Assembly: GCA_030620115.1 (NCBI GenBank)
Contig: JAUXFG010000133.1
Span: 1-10,701 of the forward strand
Length of the DNA: 10,701 nucleotides
Reading direction: 5' to 3'
Source of the DNA: Candidatus Fermentibacterota bacterium
Lineage (GTDB): Bacteria; JAFGKV01
In this document: positions 711 to 8,473 of the stretch, piece by piece
How positions within the stretch are numbered: the stretch's first letter is position 1
Layout: every line of letters begins with the position of its first letter
Translations under genes and position numbers: made by a program
Notes under the pieces: generated by a model
Told to the model about the DNA's origin: nothing
What the model saw: only the letters and a program-made list of their open reading frames with translations
Database searches by the model: none

Positions 711-1388
711 ATGTTCGACAGCCTTCTTGTAGAAGCGAGTACGCTGACAATCCGTGACGTCCTGACAAGGATTCTGTTGGCCTTCGTTTTGGGGCTCGCC
801 ACGGCCCTGCTCTACCGGAAGACGCACAACTCACCCAGTTGTTCGAGAAGCTTCATGAATACGCTTGCCATGCTCTCCATGGTTACCTGCATGGTGCTGA
901 TCGTCATCGGCAATAATGTCGCCCGCGCATTCACCCTCGTGGGCGCTCTTTCCATCATACGCTTCCGCACCGCGGTCAAGGATACCAGAGACACCGCCTT
1001 CGTCTTCCTGGCCCTGGCCGCAGGTATGGCAGCAGGCACGACGAGGCCTTCGCTTGTCATCGCCATCTACTGCGGAGTCGGTGTTTTGGTCTATCTGCTC
1101 CATGGAATCCCCCTTGGCCGCTCATCCAACGGCACGGTAGGCCTGAGGTTCTCGGTCCAGCCCGATGAGATTCCGGAAGACGTCTATTTGAGCGTGATCA
1201 AGAGCCATGCGAGAACAATTTCTTTGGTAGGGCTACAGAGTCAGAAACTTGGCCAATTGATGGAGCTTTCCTATCAGTTGGAGATGAGGAGGACCTCCTC
1301 TGCCCAGAATCTTGTGAGCCGGCTCTCCGCCCTCCCGGGCGTCATGAAGGTCGCCATCCTCAGCCTCGATCAGCAGGAAGAACCTTAA
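711..1388 (+). CDS. DUF4956 family membrane protein
   Basis: This 225-residue inner-membrane protein has about four hydrophobic segments, near residues 16-35, 50-68, 94-110 and 114-132. They are followed by a soluble C-terminal domain (about 142-222) with alternating strands and helices. The signature GALSIIRFRTAVKDTRDTAF (78-97) is characteristic of DUF4956. The ATG at 711 begins two bases after the upstream VTC-domain stop; a weak GGCGG about nine bases before it and the close spacing suggest translational coupling. DUF4956 genes often sit beside VTC-domain genes, which suggests a shared membrane-associated process, perhaps polyphosphate or cell-envelope related. The biochemical role is unknown. 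The gene ends convergently with the helicase gene on the other strand. Confidence 0.85.
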   Translation: MFDSLLVEASTLTIRDVLTRILLAFVLGLATALLYRKTHNSPSCSRSFMNTLAMLSMVTCMVLIVIGNNVARAFTLVGALSIIRFRTAVKDTRDTAFVFLALAAGMAAGTTRPSLVIAIYCGVGVLVYLLHGIPLGRSSNGTVGLRFSVQPDEIPEDVYLSVIKSHARTISLVGLQSQKLGQLMELSYQLEMRRTSSAQNLVSRLSALPGVMKVAILSLDQQEEP

Positions 1389-1508: not shown

Positions 1509-4379
1509 CTATAACCGCTCTCTTGTGATCAGCTCGCGACCCAAGTCGATCAACTCCTTCACCGTGAGAATGAAGTCTTCGGTGGTTTCCGGGCTTGGGG
1601 GCGGGGACTCTTCTTCGTCATCCGTGGGTGGGGCACTCAGCGCGCGCACACGATCAACACGAGCTGAAAGGTCCGCAGGCAATCGCCCTTTGGCGACGAG
1701 TTCCGCTTCCACGAGCCGGGCCGATGGCAGCTGTTCAGTCGGCGTTCCCTCCTTTACCAACGAAATGTGCGCGGTCAAGGCCCATCCCAGCGCTTGACGC
1801 ACCGGCCTCATCACTTCCTCCGGAAAGCCGCCCTCGAGCACAACCGACGCGAGTTTGAGACGCTTGTCGGAAGTCTCAAGCGCCGTTGTCGCCTGTCTCG
1901 TTCGTTTCTCCCCTGCCTTTCGGAGCTTGTCCTGGTCTGGAGAGGGTATGGCCGGGGCACGGTAGCACATCGCTGACGAATCGGCCTCTTCCATCATTCC
2001 GCCCGTGAGAGCCATGAGCGTCCGGTAGCCCTCTTGCTCCATGAGCAGAAGGCCTGGGGGAGGAGATGCACCGTAGTGTTCCCCGAGCAACTGTTCCACC
2101 TTGGAGCGCAATGCTGCCGGCTCGCTGTCAACAACCACCAGGATATTGCCATTGCTTGACGCACCCGGCAGCTGCGGAGCCTCTCGCACGAGAAGAATGC
2201 GACCAGGATAACGTTCCAGCAACAGATCAGTGAATCCTTTGAGCGTTGGCTTCGGTGTGACTTCCGGTTCTGTCTTCTGAACCTCCGAGGGTACGAGCGT
2301 GAGCCGGGCCTTTGTCGGTTCTTCGGTTCCCAGCAAGACTTCAAGCCGTTGCAGAACCCCTTGTCCTGCTTCCTCAAAGGAGAGGTCGGTCACGGTGCTG
2401 TCCTCGGTGAGGGCGGCGTCGAACACGGCTCGCTTGGCAGCAAGAGTATCGAGCATGCGCTCCTCGATGGTGCCCTTGGCGATGAGATTCACCACATTGA
2501 CAGGACGACGCTGTCCGTGTCGGTGTGCCCGTGCGATCCGCTGCTCAAGCACCGCAGGGTTCCATGGCAAATCCAGGTTGATCACCATGCTGGCGGCCTG
2601 GAGGTTCAATCCAACCCCTCCCGCATCGGTGGAAAGGAACACCTTACACTGTGGGTCTTCAAAAAACCGTTCAATGAGCGCCCCTCGCTTGGCGGAAGGC
2701 ACGTCACCAGTGAGTTTCACCCAACCTAACTTGAGCTTTTTCAGTATCGGTTCGGTGAGCGAGAGCATATGAGTCCACTGGCTGAAGATGAGGGCCTTGT
2801 GACCGTTGCTTGCGATTTCTTCATGGAGAATCTCGCGTAGTTCACGCAATTTCGGGGCGGTTTTCTCACAGTCTTGGGGCTTGACCTCGGGATCATGAAG
2901 CGCCAAGGCGTTGCAGATCAGACGCATCTTGATGAGAGCGCCGAGAAGGACTTGGTGCTCCTCCGGGCGAAGAGGGCGACGCTGGGCAATCGCCATGATC
3001 CTCGCAACGATCTGCTGATATTCGAGGTAGGGGTCCCACTGGGGTTCGGTCATCTCCACGAAGTAATTGTTGTCGATGCGCTCGGGAAGGTCGAGCAGAA
3101 CGTCGTCGCGCAGGCGACGTTTCACATAGGGGGCAATGCGGCGACGCAGCTCATCCAAGTTCTTGTGGCCCAACACCTTGTATGAGCCAGTGGGGCGTCG
3201 TTGGACATCGTAGTAACGAAGATTGAATCGCCACAATGGACCCAAAATAGTGGGGTCAATGAACTGAAACACTGAATAAAGCTCGTCGAGCCGGTTTTCC
3301 AAAGGAGTGCCTGTGAGCACGAATGCATATGTGCTGCGCAGCCGCTTGACATTATCGGCAGTCTTGGTTCGCCAGTTCTTTATCCGTTGCGCTTCGTCAA
3401 GAATAACCAGGTCGAACTCCCTTGCCGCGAATTCCTTGTGGTCAAACCGGACGAGCTCATAGTTCACGATGTTGAAGAATTTCAGGTCCCGATAGAGATC
3501 CCGACGCACTATCGGGTTACCTTCGATGACTTGAACGGAGAGCGATGTGAAGCGGCGGATTTCGCGAGCCCATTGGTGCTTGAGCGATGCGGGGCAGACC
3601 ACCAGTACGTGCCGGATGTCACGCAGCTGTTTGAGAAGTGTCGCCGCTGCGATGGCTTGAATGGTCTTGCCCAGGCCCATGTCGTCGGCCAAGAGGACAC
3701 GATGACCGAAGGTGAGATGGAGTACTCCCTCATCCTGATAGCCATAGAGCGGCGTTGAGAGCACATTGAGCGATCGATTCCCCTTCTCCTTCTGATCAAG
3801 GAACCAGCGTTTCTGCTCCTCGACCGCTCCAATGTCCTGCTGGTTCTTCAGGTAGTCGTAAACTGCCTGATCGATATAGATCGCCTCACAATTACCATCG
3901 GTCATATGATCCAGTTCAGCAAGCAGCGACGGCAAGCTTTGAGTGATCGTACCCTGCAAGACACCTTCTGCATCGAAATGACGCGTCAGCAACTCATGCA
4001 GTTTCCCATCACTTGGAAGCGGCAGCGTGGCTCGGATCGTCGTTCGCTCACCATGATGCACATAGAGCTGGGTGATGGCGGGCGCGTCGGCAATGAGCTT
4101 CTCCCATCGATCGGAAAATTCTCGCTCCAGGTGTGCAAGCACACCCTCGATGTGCTTGCAGGTACCAATGGTGTTGGTACGGTAGTCGGGACAGGTACAC
4201 GTGTTGAGCCTCTGGGTGAGCGATCGAATCTGAACAACGTATTTCCGTTCAGACTTGGAGGTCACCTCGAATGTGCTGTATACCGGGCTTCTGCCCTTGT
4301 TGACGATTTCGACGAGTTCTTCCAGTCCGCGCTTGCGGCGACGCTGAATCTGCTCCTGAAGCATTTCCTCGCTTATCAT
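1509..4379 (-). CDS. SWIM zinc-finger SNF2-family helicase-like ATPase with C-terminal extension
   Basis: This 956-residue protein starts at an ATG (4379) preceded by AGGAG at six bases. A SWIM zinc finger lies near the N-terminus (C61, C63, C74, H76; CxCx10CxH), a putative nucleic-acid or protein binding element. The SNF2 motor follows. Walker A is DDMGLGKT (232-239), motif II is DEAQ (328-331), motif III is LTGTPLENR (355-363), motif V is STDAGGVGLNLQ (583-594), and motif VI is QRIARAHRHGQ (613-623). All catalytic signatures are intact, so an active dsDNA-translocating ATPase is expected. It resembles the HepA/RapA-type COG0553 group with a SWIM domain, but it is not clearly RapA itself. 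Residues about 710-956 are an extra module: an alpha/beta segment (715-790), helices (815-910) and an acidic Pro/Glu-rich linker (917-932). It appears monocistronic. Its role could be transcription recycling, repair or defence; the window does not decide. Confidence 0.92.
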   Translation of the reverse strand: MISEEMLQEQIQRRRKRGLEELVEIVNKGRSPVYSTFEVTSKSERKYVVQIRSLTQRLNTCTCPDYRTNTIGTCKHIEGVLAHLEREFSDRWEKLIADAPAITQLYVHHGERTTIRATLPLPSDGKLHELLTRHFDAEGVLQGTITQSLPSLLAELDHMTDGNCEAIYIDQAVYDYLKNQQDIGAVEEQKRWFLDQKEKGNRSLNVLSTPLYGYQDEGVLHLTFGHRVLLADDMGLGKTIQAIAAATLLKQLRDIRHVLVVCPASLKHQWAREIRRFTSLSVQVIEGNPIVRRDLYRDLKFFNIVNYELVRFDHKEFAAREFDLVILDEAQRIKNWRTKTADNVKRLRSTYAFVLTGTPLENRLDELYSVFQFIDPTILGPLWRFNLRYYDVQRRPTGSYKVLGHKNLDELRRRIAPYVKRRLRDDVLLDLPERIDNNYFVEMTEPQWDPYLEYQQIVARIMAIAQRRPLRPEEHQVLLGALIKMRLICNALALHDPEVKPQDCEKTAPKLRELREILHEEIASNGHKALIFSQWTHMLSLTEPILKKLKLGWVKLTGDVPSAKRGALIERFFEDPQCKVFLSTDAGGVGLNLQAASMVINLDLPWNPAVLEQRIARAHRHGQRRPVNVVNLIAKGTIEERMLDTLAAKRAVFDAALTEDSTVTDLSFEEAGQGVLQRLEVLLGTEEPTKARLTLVPSEVQKTEPEVTPKPTLKGFTDLLLERYPGRILLVREAPQLPGASSNGNILVVVDSEPAALRSKVEQLLGEHYGASPPPGLLLMEQEGYRTLMALTGGMMEEADSSAMCYRAPAIPSPDQDKLRKAGEKRTRQATTALETSDKRLKLASVVLEGGFPEEVMRPVRQALGWALTAHISLVKEGTPTEQLPSARLVEAELVAKGRLPADLSARVDRVRALSAPPTDDEEESPPPSPETTEDFILTVKELIDLGRELITRERL

Positions 4380-4817: not shown

Positions 4818-6599
4818 CTATTGCAGCAACCGTTCGAGATCGGCGCGCAACGATTCGAGGCGGGCGAGGAACTCGTCGCGTTGCCCGGAGACCAGCTGTG
4901 CCGCCAAGTCACGGTATTGCCGGATTCCCCGTAGCAGATTTTCCTTGCTCTCCGGTGAGAAGTGGCTGGTGGCAACGGCCAGGCCCTGCATGCGGCGCTG
5001 CACCTCGCTTTTGAGTCGATCGATGTGCAACGAGAGCTCACTGAGGAACATATGCGGGCGGCCCGTAGTCAGTGGCAGGCTGGCACGCCCGTAGATGTGA
5101 TCAATCATCTCATTCAAGCGGGCGATCCGGGAGAAGTACACGATGTTGGGGCCGCAGCAGACCGCGGTTGGCGCGGAAGGATCGATCCTGTTGGGGACCG
5201 TGACGCTGCCGGCCAAGTCATTGCAGATGCACGCCTTGGCCACGACCTGGTCATGCAGGTCCCGGCGCTCGACGTCGCGAAGATCAGCCTCCGCGAGCGC
5301 CTTGAGCTTGCGGCGCTGATATGCCGAGCTGGCGGTACAGAGGGGAGCCTCGGTGAATTCGGTATTGGAGAGCAGGAAACCCTTGAGGCAAGCACTGCCC
5401 GGCTTGCCGTGGGCGATGCGACTGACGCGCTGCTCTTCGCTCGTGGAGGTACGCAGGCTCCAAAATGGCACGCCCAACGGCGACGCCTCGCTTAGCTCAA
5501 CGTCGTCCTCCCCAGCCTCACACAACTTCTGCACGTGGAATTCGTCGAGGTTGACCACTTCCGGAACCAACAGAAAGGGGCTGGCCCAGCCCGTGCCATC
5601 GACCTCGTAGTGCTCATGGAGAAGATTGTCCTCATCCGCGGTGCCGATGCCGCCCTGCACCGTGACCCGGATCGGGAGCGGCTCGCCAAGAGCGGTGCGC
5701 CCAAACCGGGCAAGGGCTTTTTGCCAGATGGCCTGCAACTGCTTGGCCAGCTTCGCCTTCTCGCGCTGGAAATCCTCGAGGACCGGCCCAAGCAGCGTGC
5801 CCTTGCCACCGAAGGCGTGCCCGCCGCAGTTTAGGCCCGACTCGATACGGTATTCGGAAACCCAGAGACCCTTGCGCGCCAAGAACTTGCCCTGGACCAG
5901 AGCCGAGCGGAAATCGTTGACTTTCAGGATGATCCTCTTCTTGATCTCGCCCAGCTCGTCGGGGAAGAAGTCGTTGAACTCGGCCAGATAGCCGTACAGG
6001 CGCTGGTTGATGCCCGCCGACAGGATGATCGACGAGCGGAGCCGGCTGTGAGCATAGCCGCGCAGAGCGCTCAAGGCATCGGAAAAGACCGGCGGCAGGA
6101 GCTCGCCCTTGCGCATCCGGGGGCGGTCGACTTTAGTCATGATGTTCACATCGATGGCGCCGGGCACGGCCCGCCGGCGCAGCTCGTCCTGCAGCTCGGA
6201 CTTCTCCTGCGGATCGGGTGTCGCCAGCATCTTGTGGTAGAGCGCCTTGAGCGGCGATTCGGGCAGCATCTCGAAATAGCGGGTAATCTCGCTGCCCTTC
6301 TCGAAGAGGGAGCTGCGCAGTTTCTCCATCTGCCTGGTCACGAGGTCATCCAGCAGGTTCAGATAAGAGGTGATGCGGTCGGCGCGAGAATCCTCGGCCT
6401 CGGGCATGATCTCGGCAAATGGTCGGCCCGTGACGCCACTGAGCCAACAGCGCATCTGTTCGATGAGCATGTCGTCTACCAGGGAAACCACGGATGAGAT
6501 CCCGTAACGCGCCACCTTCAGCGGTGTATCTATGGTGAAACCGGTGCCCATGACCGGAATGTGGAACCGGTGCACGGAGTGGGTCAATGGATGACTCAC
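4818..6599 (-). CDS. Conserved uncharacterised Cys-rich protein, third gene of the pheST operon
   Basis: I chose the GTG at 6599 (593 residues) because AGGAGG lies 10 bases upstream; the frame stays open to 6695, but that extension overlaps pheT. The first conserved-looking block is FHIPVMGTGFTIDTPLKVAR (12-31). Other notable blocks are ITRYFEMLPESPLK (105-118), GLNCGGHAF (255-263), VQGGIGT (314-320), SNTEFTEAPLCTAS (411-424), CICNDLAG (457-464) and AVCCGPN (479-485). The tail (about 515-593) is helical and charged, probably coiled coil. No signal peptide or membrane segment is seen, so it is likely cytoplasmic. I recognise the family as one of conserved bacterial proteins without assigned function. 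The GGIGT loop followed by a hydrophobic strand recalls the phosphate-binding region of FMN-dependent TIM barrels such as nitronate monooxygenase. The clustered cysteines (C258, C421, C457, C459, C481, C482) could bind a metal or Fe-S cluster. Both ideas are inference. Confidence 0.85.
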   Translation of the reverse strand: MSHPLTHSVHRFHIPVMGTGFTIDTPLKVARYGISSVVSLVDDMLIEQMRCWLSGVTGRPFAEIMPEAEDSRADRITSYLNLLDDLVTRQMEKLRSSLFEKGSEITRYFEMLPESPLKALYHKMLATPDPQEKSELQDELRRRAVPGAIDVNIMTKVDRPRMRKGELLPPVFSDALSALRGYAHSRLRSSIILSAGINQRLYGYLAEFNDFFPDELGEIKKRIILKVNDFRSALVQGKFLARKGLWVSEYRIESGLNCGGHAFGGKGTLLGPVLEDFQREKAKLAKQLQAIWQKALARFGRTALGEPLPIRVTVQGGIGTADEDNLLHEHYEVDGTGWASPFLLVPEVVNLDEFHVQKLCEAGEDDVELSEASPLGVPFWSLRTSTSEEQRVSRIAHGKPGSACLKGFLLSNTEFTEAPLCTASSAYQRRKLKALAEADLRDVERRDLHDQVVAKACICNDLAGSVTVPNRIDPSAPTAVCCGPNIVYFSRIARLNEMIDHIYGRASLPLTTGRPHMFLSELSLHIDRLKSEVQRRMQGLAVATSHFSPESKENLLRGIRQYRDLAAQLVSGQRDEFLARLESLRADLERLLQ

Positions 6600-6609
6600 G
6601 TCGATTAGT

Positions 6610-6615
6610 CCTCCT
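6610..6615 (-). promoter_or_regulatory. Shine-Dalgarno of the uncharacterised gene, overlapping the pheT stop
   Basis: AGGAGG on the minus strand overlaps the pheT TAG (6614-6616) and lies 10 bases before the GTG at 6599. It decides the start of the downstream gene and suggests that ribosomes finishing pheT can re-initiate there. Confidence 0.75.
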
Positions 6616-8473
6616 ATTGTGTCTGGCTGATCCTGGCAGCAGACATGAGCTGCGCTGGCGGCCAGCCCTGGCCTGGGAGAAGGAGTTCGCCGCATATGAT
6701 GGGATAGGCCAACTTGAACCGTTCGAGTACCAGTGGATGCAGCTCACCGAATTCCCCCCTTACCTCACCATCCATGCCGAGAACCGCTGCCGACCGCCCC
6801 TCGAGATAGTACGGCCGCACGCATGGCTGTACGGAAAATGGCTCATCAAGTTCCTTGACAACTGCCTCCATCACTGAACGAACATTAGCAAAACCCGCGG
6901 TACTGCCGATGGTGGCCATGGCCACTTTCTTCAGATCCTTGGTTCCTGTCTCCGCGTCCGGATCAGCCACAGTCACATTCCCCACCTCAAAAACGCTCTG
7001 AGGAAGCTCTCGGGAAGTGTTTCGAGAAAGAATATCGAGCAGCCCCGGCAGCAACCATGTTCTTACCAACGTCTGCTCACGGCTTATCGGATTGGCAATG
7101 AGCACCGTGTAGGCCGGCACTTCCAAGCCAAACTTCGAGAAGTGATCCTCTTCATTCCCCAACATGAGCGACATGGCCTCGAGAAAACCAAGGCCCGTCA
7201 ATATCCTGCCTACCCGATCCGCCAAACCCTCCCCTTCAAGCTCGGAAGCCACCGTCATGGTGGGAACCATGGTTCGAGGTATACGATCATAACCATAGGC
7301 AACCGCTAACTCTTCCATCAGGTCACGCTCATGGAGAAAATCGGCGCGGTATGGCGGCATGCGAACAGCTGCCCGGGACCCCGGAATCAGCTCAGCATCG
7401 TGCCCCATGCGCCCTAACAAGGCGGGCGCGTCCTCGTCGGAGAAGTGAAACCCAAGGAGACGCCGGGCATGATCAAGGTCGAGGGTCATCTCCTGGGGCG
7501 ACAGATCGGGCGACTGCGCACAACGATCATCAGGTTGCCTTATGGTCACCGCCTCGCCTTGGCTCCCCACGAATATCTCGAGAATGCTGGTCATCATCAC
7601 ATTGAGTGTCTTGTTCACCAGGGTCGAGCCCGGTCCCGTGACGTCGATGAACACCTCTCGGGTGTCGAGGGTCACCTTCGTCTCCTCGCTGTTGATGATG
7701 GGCGGCATGGAGAGCACCTGACCCGCATCATCGATGAGCAGCGGATATCGAGAAAAACCGTTGAATAGCCGAGCAAAAAGGCACCCTTTGGGATGCGTCT
7801 TTAGAATCTGCTCCGGTGTGACGGGTGATTCCCATCCAAGCGGCGTGAATACCAGCTCGTCCGGACCCACCGGCCGATAGATAATCTGCCCGGAGATGCC
7901 CGCAAGGTCATATATCCCAATGGACGCCCGCTTTCGATCTCTCCCCATGGCCCAGTGAAGATTTTCCTGGAGCCGCATAATCTCCTTCAGAAGATCATGA
8001 TCGAACTGCAGGTTCCGGACTACACCACAGGCGATGGCGGGACGGAAGCTCTCCTCTTCGTCCAACCCCGGCATGACCTGTACCGAAAGACGCGGCTCGG
8101 CCAAGGCATACAAGGCCAAACCCGGCTCATGTCCAAGGTAGGCACGCAGTGTGCGTGCCAGGCCGCCCACATCAAACATGTCGGGGCGAACAGCCAATAA
8201 GTCGAGCCGAATCACATCTATGGAATCGAGCTCTTCCCGCAAATCGGGATCGGCAGAGAAATCGGCTGCACAATTGTCGCAGTATCCCGGATCAGCTTCT
8301 GTAGCCGTCTTCTCCAGTACAAAACCACAGCGGACGCAACGGAACCGCCTCATGATTCCAAACCCTTCGATGTCGCAGCCAAGACGCTCCAACGCCTTGA
8401 CCAGATCGTCTTGGGGTACGGGAGTCCGCAATAGATGCCCCAAACGTTCGATGGAGATCCCTACTACCGGCAT
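6614..8473 (-). CDS. pheT: Phenylalanine--tRNA ligase beta subunit, archaeal/eukaryotic type, with zinc-ribbon insert
   Basis: This is the beta subunit of the cytoplasmic heterotetrameric enzyme that charges tRNA-Phe. I place the start at the ATG at 8473, which gives MPVVGISIERLG, the usual archaeal-type N-terminus. AGGGAGG lies seven bases upstream; the frame extends 34 codons further, but that would lie inside pheS. The product has 619 residues, longer than the roughly 550 of typical archaeal PheT. It shows the B1 NRPD-like region (VIRLDLLAVRPDMFDVGGLA, 87-106), the B3/B4 editing region with HPKGCLFARL (227-236) and FIDVTG (275-280), a B5-like segment with HERDLMEELAVAYGYDRIP (381-399), and a B6/B7 catalytic-like core ending near ICGELLL. 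There is no bacterial EMAP-type tRNA-binding domain and no C-terminal FDX-ACB domain, which also marks it as archaeal type. An insert in B1 carries CxxC-x15-CxxC (C46, C49, C65, C68), a probable zinc ribbon. Confidence 0.95.
   Translation of the reverse strand: MPVVGISIERLGHLLRTPVPQDDLVKALERLGCDIEGFGIMRRFRCVRCGFVLEKTATEADPGYCDNCAADFSADPDLREELDSIDVIRLDLLAVRPDMFDVGGLARTLRAYLGHEPGLALYALAEPRLSVQVMPGLDEEESFRPAIACGVVRNLQFDHDLLKEIMRLQENLHWAMGRDRKRASIGIYDLAGISGQIIYRPVGPDELVFTPLGWESPVTPEQILKTHPKGCLFARLFNGFSRYPLLIDDAGQVLSMPPIINSEETKVTLDTREVFIDVTGPGSTLVNKTLNVMMTSILEIFVGSQGEAVTIRQPDDRCAQSPDLSPQEMTLDLDHARRLLGFHFSDEDAPALLGRMGHDAELIPGSRAAVRMPPYRADFLHERDLMEELAVAYGYDRIPRTMVPTMTVASELEGEGLADRVGRILTGLGFLEAMSLMLGNEEDHFSKFGLEVPAYTVLIANPISREQTLVRTWLLPGLLDILSRNTSRELPQSVFEVGNVTVADPDAETGTKDLKKVAMATIGSTAGFANVRSVMEAVVKELDEPFSVQPCVRPYYLEGRSAAVLGMDGEVRGEFGELHPLVLERFKLAYPIICGELLLPGQGWPPAQLMSAARISQTQ

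Follow-up and report, generated by a model that had tools for sequence, protein, structure and literature searches.

A predicted FabX-like flavoenzyme of an unannotated, widespread family, encoded directly behind archaeal-type pheT

An unannotated gene that starts a few bases after pheT invites the question of whether its product serves PheRS and, if it does not, what the protein does. We address this for protein X, encoded in the window, a 10,701-nucleotide stretch of DNA from a Candidatus Fermentibacterota bacterium. The features discussed are collected in Table 1.

Table 1. Features of the window that bear on protein X
Feature	Position	Strand	Evidence
Protein X, divergent FabX/FabK/nitronate-monooxygenase-like flavoenzyme, predicted TIM barrel, 593 aa, GTG start	4818..6599	-	ORF, homologues, AF2 model, fold matches
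AGGAGG ribosome-binding site, overlapping pheT stop codon (6614-6616)	6610..6615	-	sequence
pheT, archaeal-type PheRS beta chain, 618 aa	6614..8470	-	TIGR00471 424.6 bits
pheS, archaeal-type PheRS alpha chain, 513 aa	8464..10005	-	NF003210 546.9 bits
P15-V16-M17-G18, aligned by eye with FabX QGGMG flavin loop; 47/47	6546..6557	-	conservation, FabX contacts in PMC8626469
E253..C258-G-G-H261, counterpart of FabX E175 and catalytic H182 (motif EGPLAGGH); E, C and GGH invariant	5817..5843	-	hhalign, conservation
V314-Q-G-G-I-G319, counterpart of FabX G220-G221 flavin loop	5643..5660	-	alignment, conservation
C404, invariant, candidate [4Fe-4S] ligand	5388..5390	-	conservation, hhalign
C421, invariant, candidate [4Fe-4S] ligand	5337..5339	-	conservation
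C457-x-C459, invariant, candidate [4Fe-4S] ligands, region of FabX C320	5223..5231	-	conservation, hhalign
C481-C482 of CCGPN, aligned with FabX F339-T340-G341 flavin contact	5154..5159	-	hhalign, conservation

The gene and its place behind pheT

The X gene runs on the minus strand from a GTG at 6599 to a stop codon at 4818-4820. The pheT TAG lies at 6616-6614, leaving 14 bases before the GTG. An earlier, sequence-only reading of this DNA had noted this gap and an AGGAGG on the pheT stop, and the minus-strand sequence ACAATAGGAGGACTAATCGACGTG confirms both. The GTG start is corroborated by homologues, whose N-termini coincide with that of X and resemble it in sequence. They open with MNHPLMHPVHKF, VSHPLINPVHKF or LSHPLTHPVHSF, and the start region is kept among them as HPLxxxVHxFHIPVMG. 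The open reading frame is real. Because the pheS and pheT frames overlap by a few bases and only 14 bases separate pheT from X, pheS-pheT-X looks like one transcription unit, and the spacing makes co-transcription of the three genes likely. A search near X for a tRNA, an Rfam RNA or a sigma-70-like promoter found none.

Both PheRS genes are archaeal-type equivalogs (NF003210, TIGR00471), and PheT has a single match in the window genome. Such a pair is seen in all three genomes examined of this small bacterial phylum, the window genome and its siblings G001 and G002, whose pheST genes are 57-67% identical to those of the window. The N-terminus of PheT carries a zinc-ribbon-like insertion, CVRCGFVLEKTATEADPGYCDNC, common to the PheT of both siblings. 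Binning contamination was considered as the cause of the odd neighbourhood and rejected, with pheT single-copy and 57-60% identical to the pheT of the sibling genomes. Elsewhere in the window, adjacent VTC-domain and DUF4956 genes (70-708 and 711-1388, plus strand) suggest a polyphosphate or membrane-linked module. A SNF2-family helicase (1509-4379, minus strand) has an N-terminal stretch resembling a SWIM zinc finger (CTCPDY...CKH); its likeness to defence helicases is confined to the helicase core.

The sequence-only reading had considered that X might be linked to the modification of tRNA-Phe, to amino-acid metabolism or to quality control by PheRS, to be checked by looking for recurrent pheST adjacency among homologues. 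The 14-base gap and the overlapping Shine-Dalgarno sequence in the window genome are what speak for such a functional tie, whether through modification, quality control or amino-acid supply. The adjacency does not recur. Searching with both PheRS subunits by tblastn, we found pheS or pheT beside none of 87 X loci, at least 2 kb being available upstream in 71 of them and at least 2 kb downstream in 55. The test is sensitive because the same query picks up diverged bacterial-type PheT in other loci. X is also absent from both siblings, which keep pheST, and its homologues adjoin unrelated genes with no fixed neighbour. A functional tie to PheRS or tRNA-Phe is therefore very improbable. Given these loci and the siblings, the pheT-X arrangement is specific to the window lineage as far as the examined genomes show, and from its place behind pheT X would at most be transcribed together with pheST, with no function in common. 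The gene is an example of how an operon-like place behind an essential gene can mislead about function.

A phosphomannomutase-like gene lies on the same strand 43-89 bases upstream of X in five Krumholzibacteria-type loci (L007, L008, L060, L137 and L143). Outside the window genome, no other same-strand gene recurs close upstream of X.

Predicted fold, flavin site and cysteines

Sequence models do not identify X. No credible model match was obtained in Pfam, NCBIfam, PHROGs or PADLOC, nor anything credible in the PDB by phmmer or hmmsearch, and neither X nor any of 46 homologues matched PF03060 or TIGR03151 at the curated cut-offs. A FabX-like profile (A2) run across the window genome found an IMP-dehydrogenase-like protein as its sole match and did not find X. 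Apolipoprotein matches were set aside because they reflect composition and fall on amphipathic helices at the C-terminus (residues 515-590).

An AlphaFold2 model built from 47 sequences has a mean pLDDT of 90.4 and a pTM of 0.92. It confidently predicts a TIM barrel and places X among the flavoenzymes of the nitronate monooxygenase/FabK superfamily. The top five structure matches by Z-score (22.9-24.1) are all entries for Helicobacter pylori FabX (HP0773, PDB 7E1Q), the FMN- and [4Fe-4S]-containing dehydrogenase/isomerase of unsaturated fatty acid synthesis, which acts on acyl-ACP. The best of these aligns 338 of 366 residues at 3.2 A and about 17% identity. The match lies between positions 7 and 363 of the FabX chain (357 positions), so with 338 aligned most of its cluster subdomain (267-363) must be matched. 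FabX leads the other matches by about 2.8 Z units; these are FabK (Z about 21), nitronate monooxygenase/NADH:quinone reductase, PfaD and the enoyl-reductase domains of fatty acid synthase.

At the level of sequence, the link to FabX was found only by profile-profile comparison. Comparing X by hhalign with five FabX-like proteins of other genomes gave 270 columns, an E-value of 5e-5 and a probability of 67%. Taken alone this match is moderate, but it is consistent with the structure comparison and brings the key residues together. FabX E175/GGH182 pairs with E253/GGH261 of X, N99 with N152, SPVGxP with SPLGVP, the region of the first cluster cysteine with C404, and YCI (C320) with the CIC at 457-459. 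The paired residues are all invariant or nearly so.

In FabX, the FMN contacts include N99, E175, Q240, T243 and glycines 22, 23, 25, 180, 220 and 221, with G22, G23, M24 and G25 forming the flavin loop contacts (PMC8626469). The catalytic histidine is H182, and the [4Fe-4S] ligands are C300, C304, C308 and C320, held in a subdomain that stands in place of the FabK NAD(P)H site (PMC8626469). The counterparts in X, N152, E253, G260-H261, G316-G317 and M17-G18, are each conserved in 47/47 homologues. FabX T243 corresponds to S/T340 of X, and Q240 is replaced (G337/W338).

The same alignment holds C258, C404, C421, C457 and C459 in all 47 sequences, C481 in 46 and C482 in 25. Because C404, C421, C457 and C459 are invariant and fall within the stretch corresponding to the FabX cluster subdomain, these four most likely hold a [4Fe-4S] cluster. 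Their spacing, C-x16-C-x35-C-x-C, departs from the C-x3-C-x3-C-x11-C of FabX, so the FabX pattern is not reproduced.

The sequence-only reading had taken X for a possible flavin or Fe-S redox protein and had proposed structure prediction as a check for a TIM barrel. The confident model does show the barrel and matches FabX, FabK and nitronate monooxygenases. Together with the invariance of the flavin-site and cysteine positions, this supports that idea. The motifs it named lie where it placed them (G316-G317-I318-G319-T320, C457-x-C459 and C481-C482). Its description of X as cysteine-rich does not hold, with nine cysteines in 593 residues, but the conservation it saw in the cysteine blocks does (C457 and C459 47/47, C481 46/47). 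Its list of cysteines, correct for CxC and CC, lacked the invariant C258, C404 and C421.

Distribution and fatty acid gene content

A scan of GTDB species genomes returned 68 X loci with best-segment identities of about 40-74%. They come from Krumholzibacteriota, Zixibacteria, Thermodesulfobacteriota, Myxococcota, Planctomycetota, Elusimicrobia, Acidobacteria, Spirochaetes and Bacteroidota, and include named species of Chryseobacterium, Cellulophaga, Eudoraea, Algibacter, Empedobacter and Chitinophaga. Viral contigs, plasmids and phages yielded no homologue. In the tree, the window protein sits inside a fully supported group with Krumholzibacteriota-type sequences. X appears to belong to an unannotated, widespread, FabX-like family.

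Other nitronate-monooxygenase-family proteins with a C..C..CxC..CG pattern (RKCLCNAL, TCGDD) were encountered at L108:829-2274, L110:1060-1830 and L106:1219-2439. Their cysteine order resembles that of X, and they are possibly another Fe-S-bearing subfamily. Direct kinship between X and the CxC-bearing proteins of L108 and L110 was supported over a short segment only and was not retained.

The fatty acid gene survey covered FabX, FabK, FabA/FabZ and PF00487 desaturases. In the window genome (98% complete) it found neither FabX nor a FabK-type protein, the single nitronate-monooxygenase-like match being IMP-dehydrogenase-like, and no PF00487 desaturase. The genome also has no separate FabA/FabZ. 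The only domain of that family found is in an LpxC-FabZ fusion (L155:1202-2536, minus strand), followed by lpxA. Sibling G001 encodes a true FabX (E-value 7e-194) and no X. This one comparison is suggestive of X replacing FabX.

We looked for the same relation in 80 genomes of Krumholzibacteriota, the phylum of L003, where 33 carry X; a weak match in a possible 34th carrier (G123) is probably spurious. Three genomes have both X and FabX, 30 have X without FabX, eight have FabX without X and 39 have neither. Mutual exclusion beyond chance was not seen in this set (Fisher p 0.51), nor was an association of X with the absence of desaturases (p 0.61), and none of the 80 passed the FabA cut-off. 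Complementarity of X with FabX, desaturase or FabA was accordingly dropped, there being no significant pattern in this phylum. In 29 of the 80 genomes none of X, FabX or PF00487 is present, so these bacteria either use another route or make no unsaturated fatty acids. Aerobic Bacteroidota with X, such as Chryseobacterium and Eudoraea, probably have further routes to unsaturated fatty acids. The distribution speaks neither for nor against a fatty acid role of X, and the proposed role rests on the modelled structural kinship.

Proposed activity, alternatives and known relatives

The best explanation, to which we give a probability of about 0.5, makes X a soluble, FMN-dependent member of the FabK/nitronate-monooxygenase superfamily that works as a dehydrogenase in unsaturated fatty acid synthesis and comes closest to H. 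pylori FabX. An acyl thioester, most likely acyl-ACP, would enter over the FMN. H261, the counterpart of FabX H182, would be the catalytic histidine, and hydride transfer to FMN would leave a 2,3-double bond. The cysteine-bearing subdomain, located where FabK binds NAD(P)H, most likely carries a [4Fe-4S] cluster, through which electrons would exit singly, with something other than NAD(P)H as their acceptor. By analogy with FabX, the cellular role may be unsaturated fatty acid synthesis. For X we infer bound FMN, the bound cluster, the acyl-ACP substrate and this role.

It is plausible, though less likely, that X is instead a flavoenzyme of the same superfamily with another substrate, for example a thioester, a quinone, a nitronate or a specialised lipid precursor, and no part in unsaturated fatty acid synthesis. 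The superfamily takes in nitronate monooxygenases, quinone reductases, PfaD and FabK, the presence of X does not track that of FabX or desaturases, and X is about 230 residues longer than FabX, with many invariant residues that have no FabX counterpart. Against this stand the first rank of the FabX entries, clear of all other matches, and the conserved cysteine-bearing subdomain at the position of the FabX cluster subdomain. An NAD(P)H-dependent, FabK-like FMN enoyl reductase, in which the cysteines would be structural or zinc-binding, agrees with the Z-scores of the FabK structures and with the lack of FabK in the window genome. We consider it unlikely, since FabX fits X better, X coexists with FabK-sized proteins of the nitronate monooxygenase family in many genomes, and its cysteine subdomain occupies the place of the FabK NAD(P)H-binding motif (PMC8626469).

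The FabX-like reading can be extended to the whole family. X would then found an unrecognised enzyme family of about ten bacterial phyla that uses FMN and a [4Fe-4S] site of different build to dehydrogenate acyl-ACP and so make unsaturated fatty acids, a proposal we regard as rather doubtful. To our knowledge, no gene for unsaturated fatty acid synthesis is recognised in many bacterial lineages. If true, the proposal would explain unsaturated lipids in bacteria that, like the window organism, lack FabA, FabX and desaturases. X represents a strongly conserved, unannotated flavoenzyme family whose predicted structure suggests kinship with FabX. Culturable genera carry it (Chryseobacterium, Cellulophaga, Eudoraea and Chitinophaga).

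Among known systems, PfaD and the trans-acting enoyl reductases (TIGR02814) resemble X in fold (Z 17-19) and have a similar length. We know of no [4Fe-4S] site in them, and the surroundings of X showed no recognisable genes for polyketide or PUFA synthases. Nitronate monooxygenase/NADH:quinone reductase (PF03060) shares the fold (Z 16.5-20) but has no cysteine cluster, and X lacks a PF03060 sequence match. FabK (enoyl-ACP reductase II, TIGR03151/PF03060) shares the fold and the position of the catalytic histidine; FabK uses NAD(P)H and has no [4Fe-4S] subdomain, and neither of its sequence models matches X. With FabX, X shares the TIM-barrel flavin fold, the GGH catalytic motif, the E and N flavin contacts, the SPxG motif, the C-terminal cysteine-bearing subdomain and a CGxN loop where FabX has TGxN. 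The two differ in length (593 versus 363 residues, at the roughly 17% identity given above), in the W338/P341 of X where FabX has its QMATR loop, in the C-terminal helices of X, and in that the PF03060 and TIGR03151 sequence models miss X. On the modelled structure, X is a divergent relative whose nearest neighbour among solved structures is H. pylori FabX.
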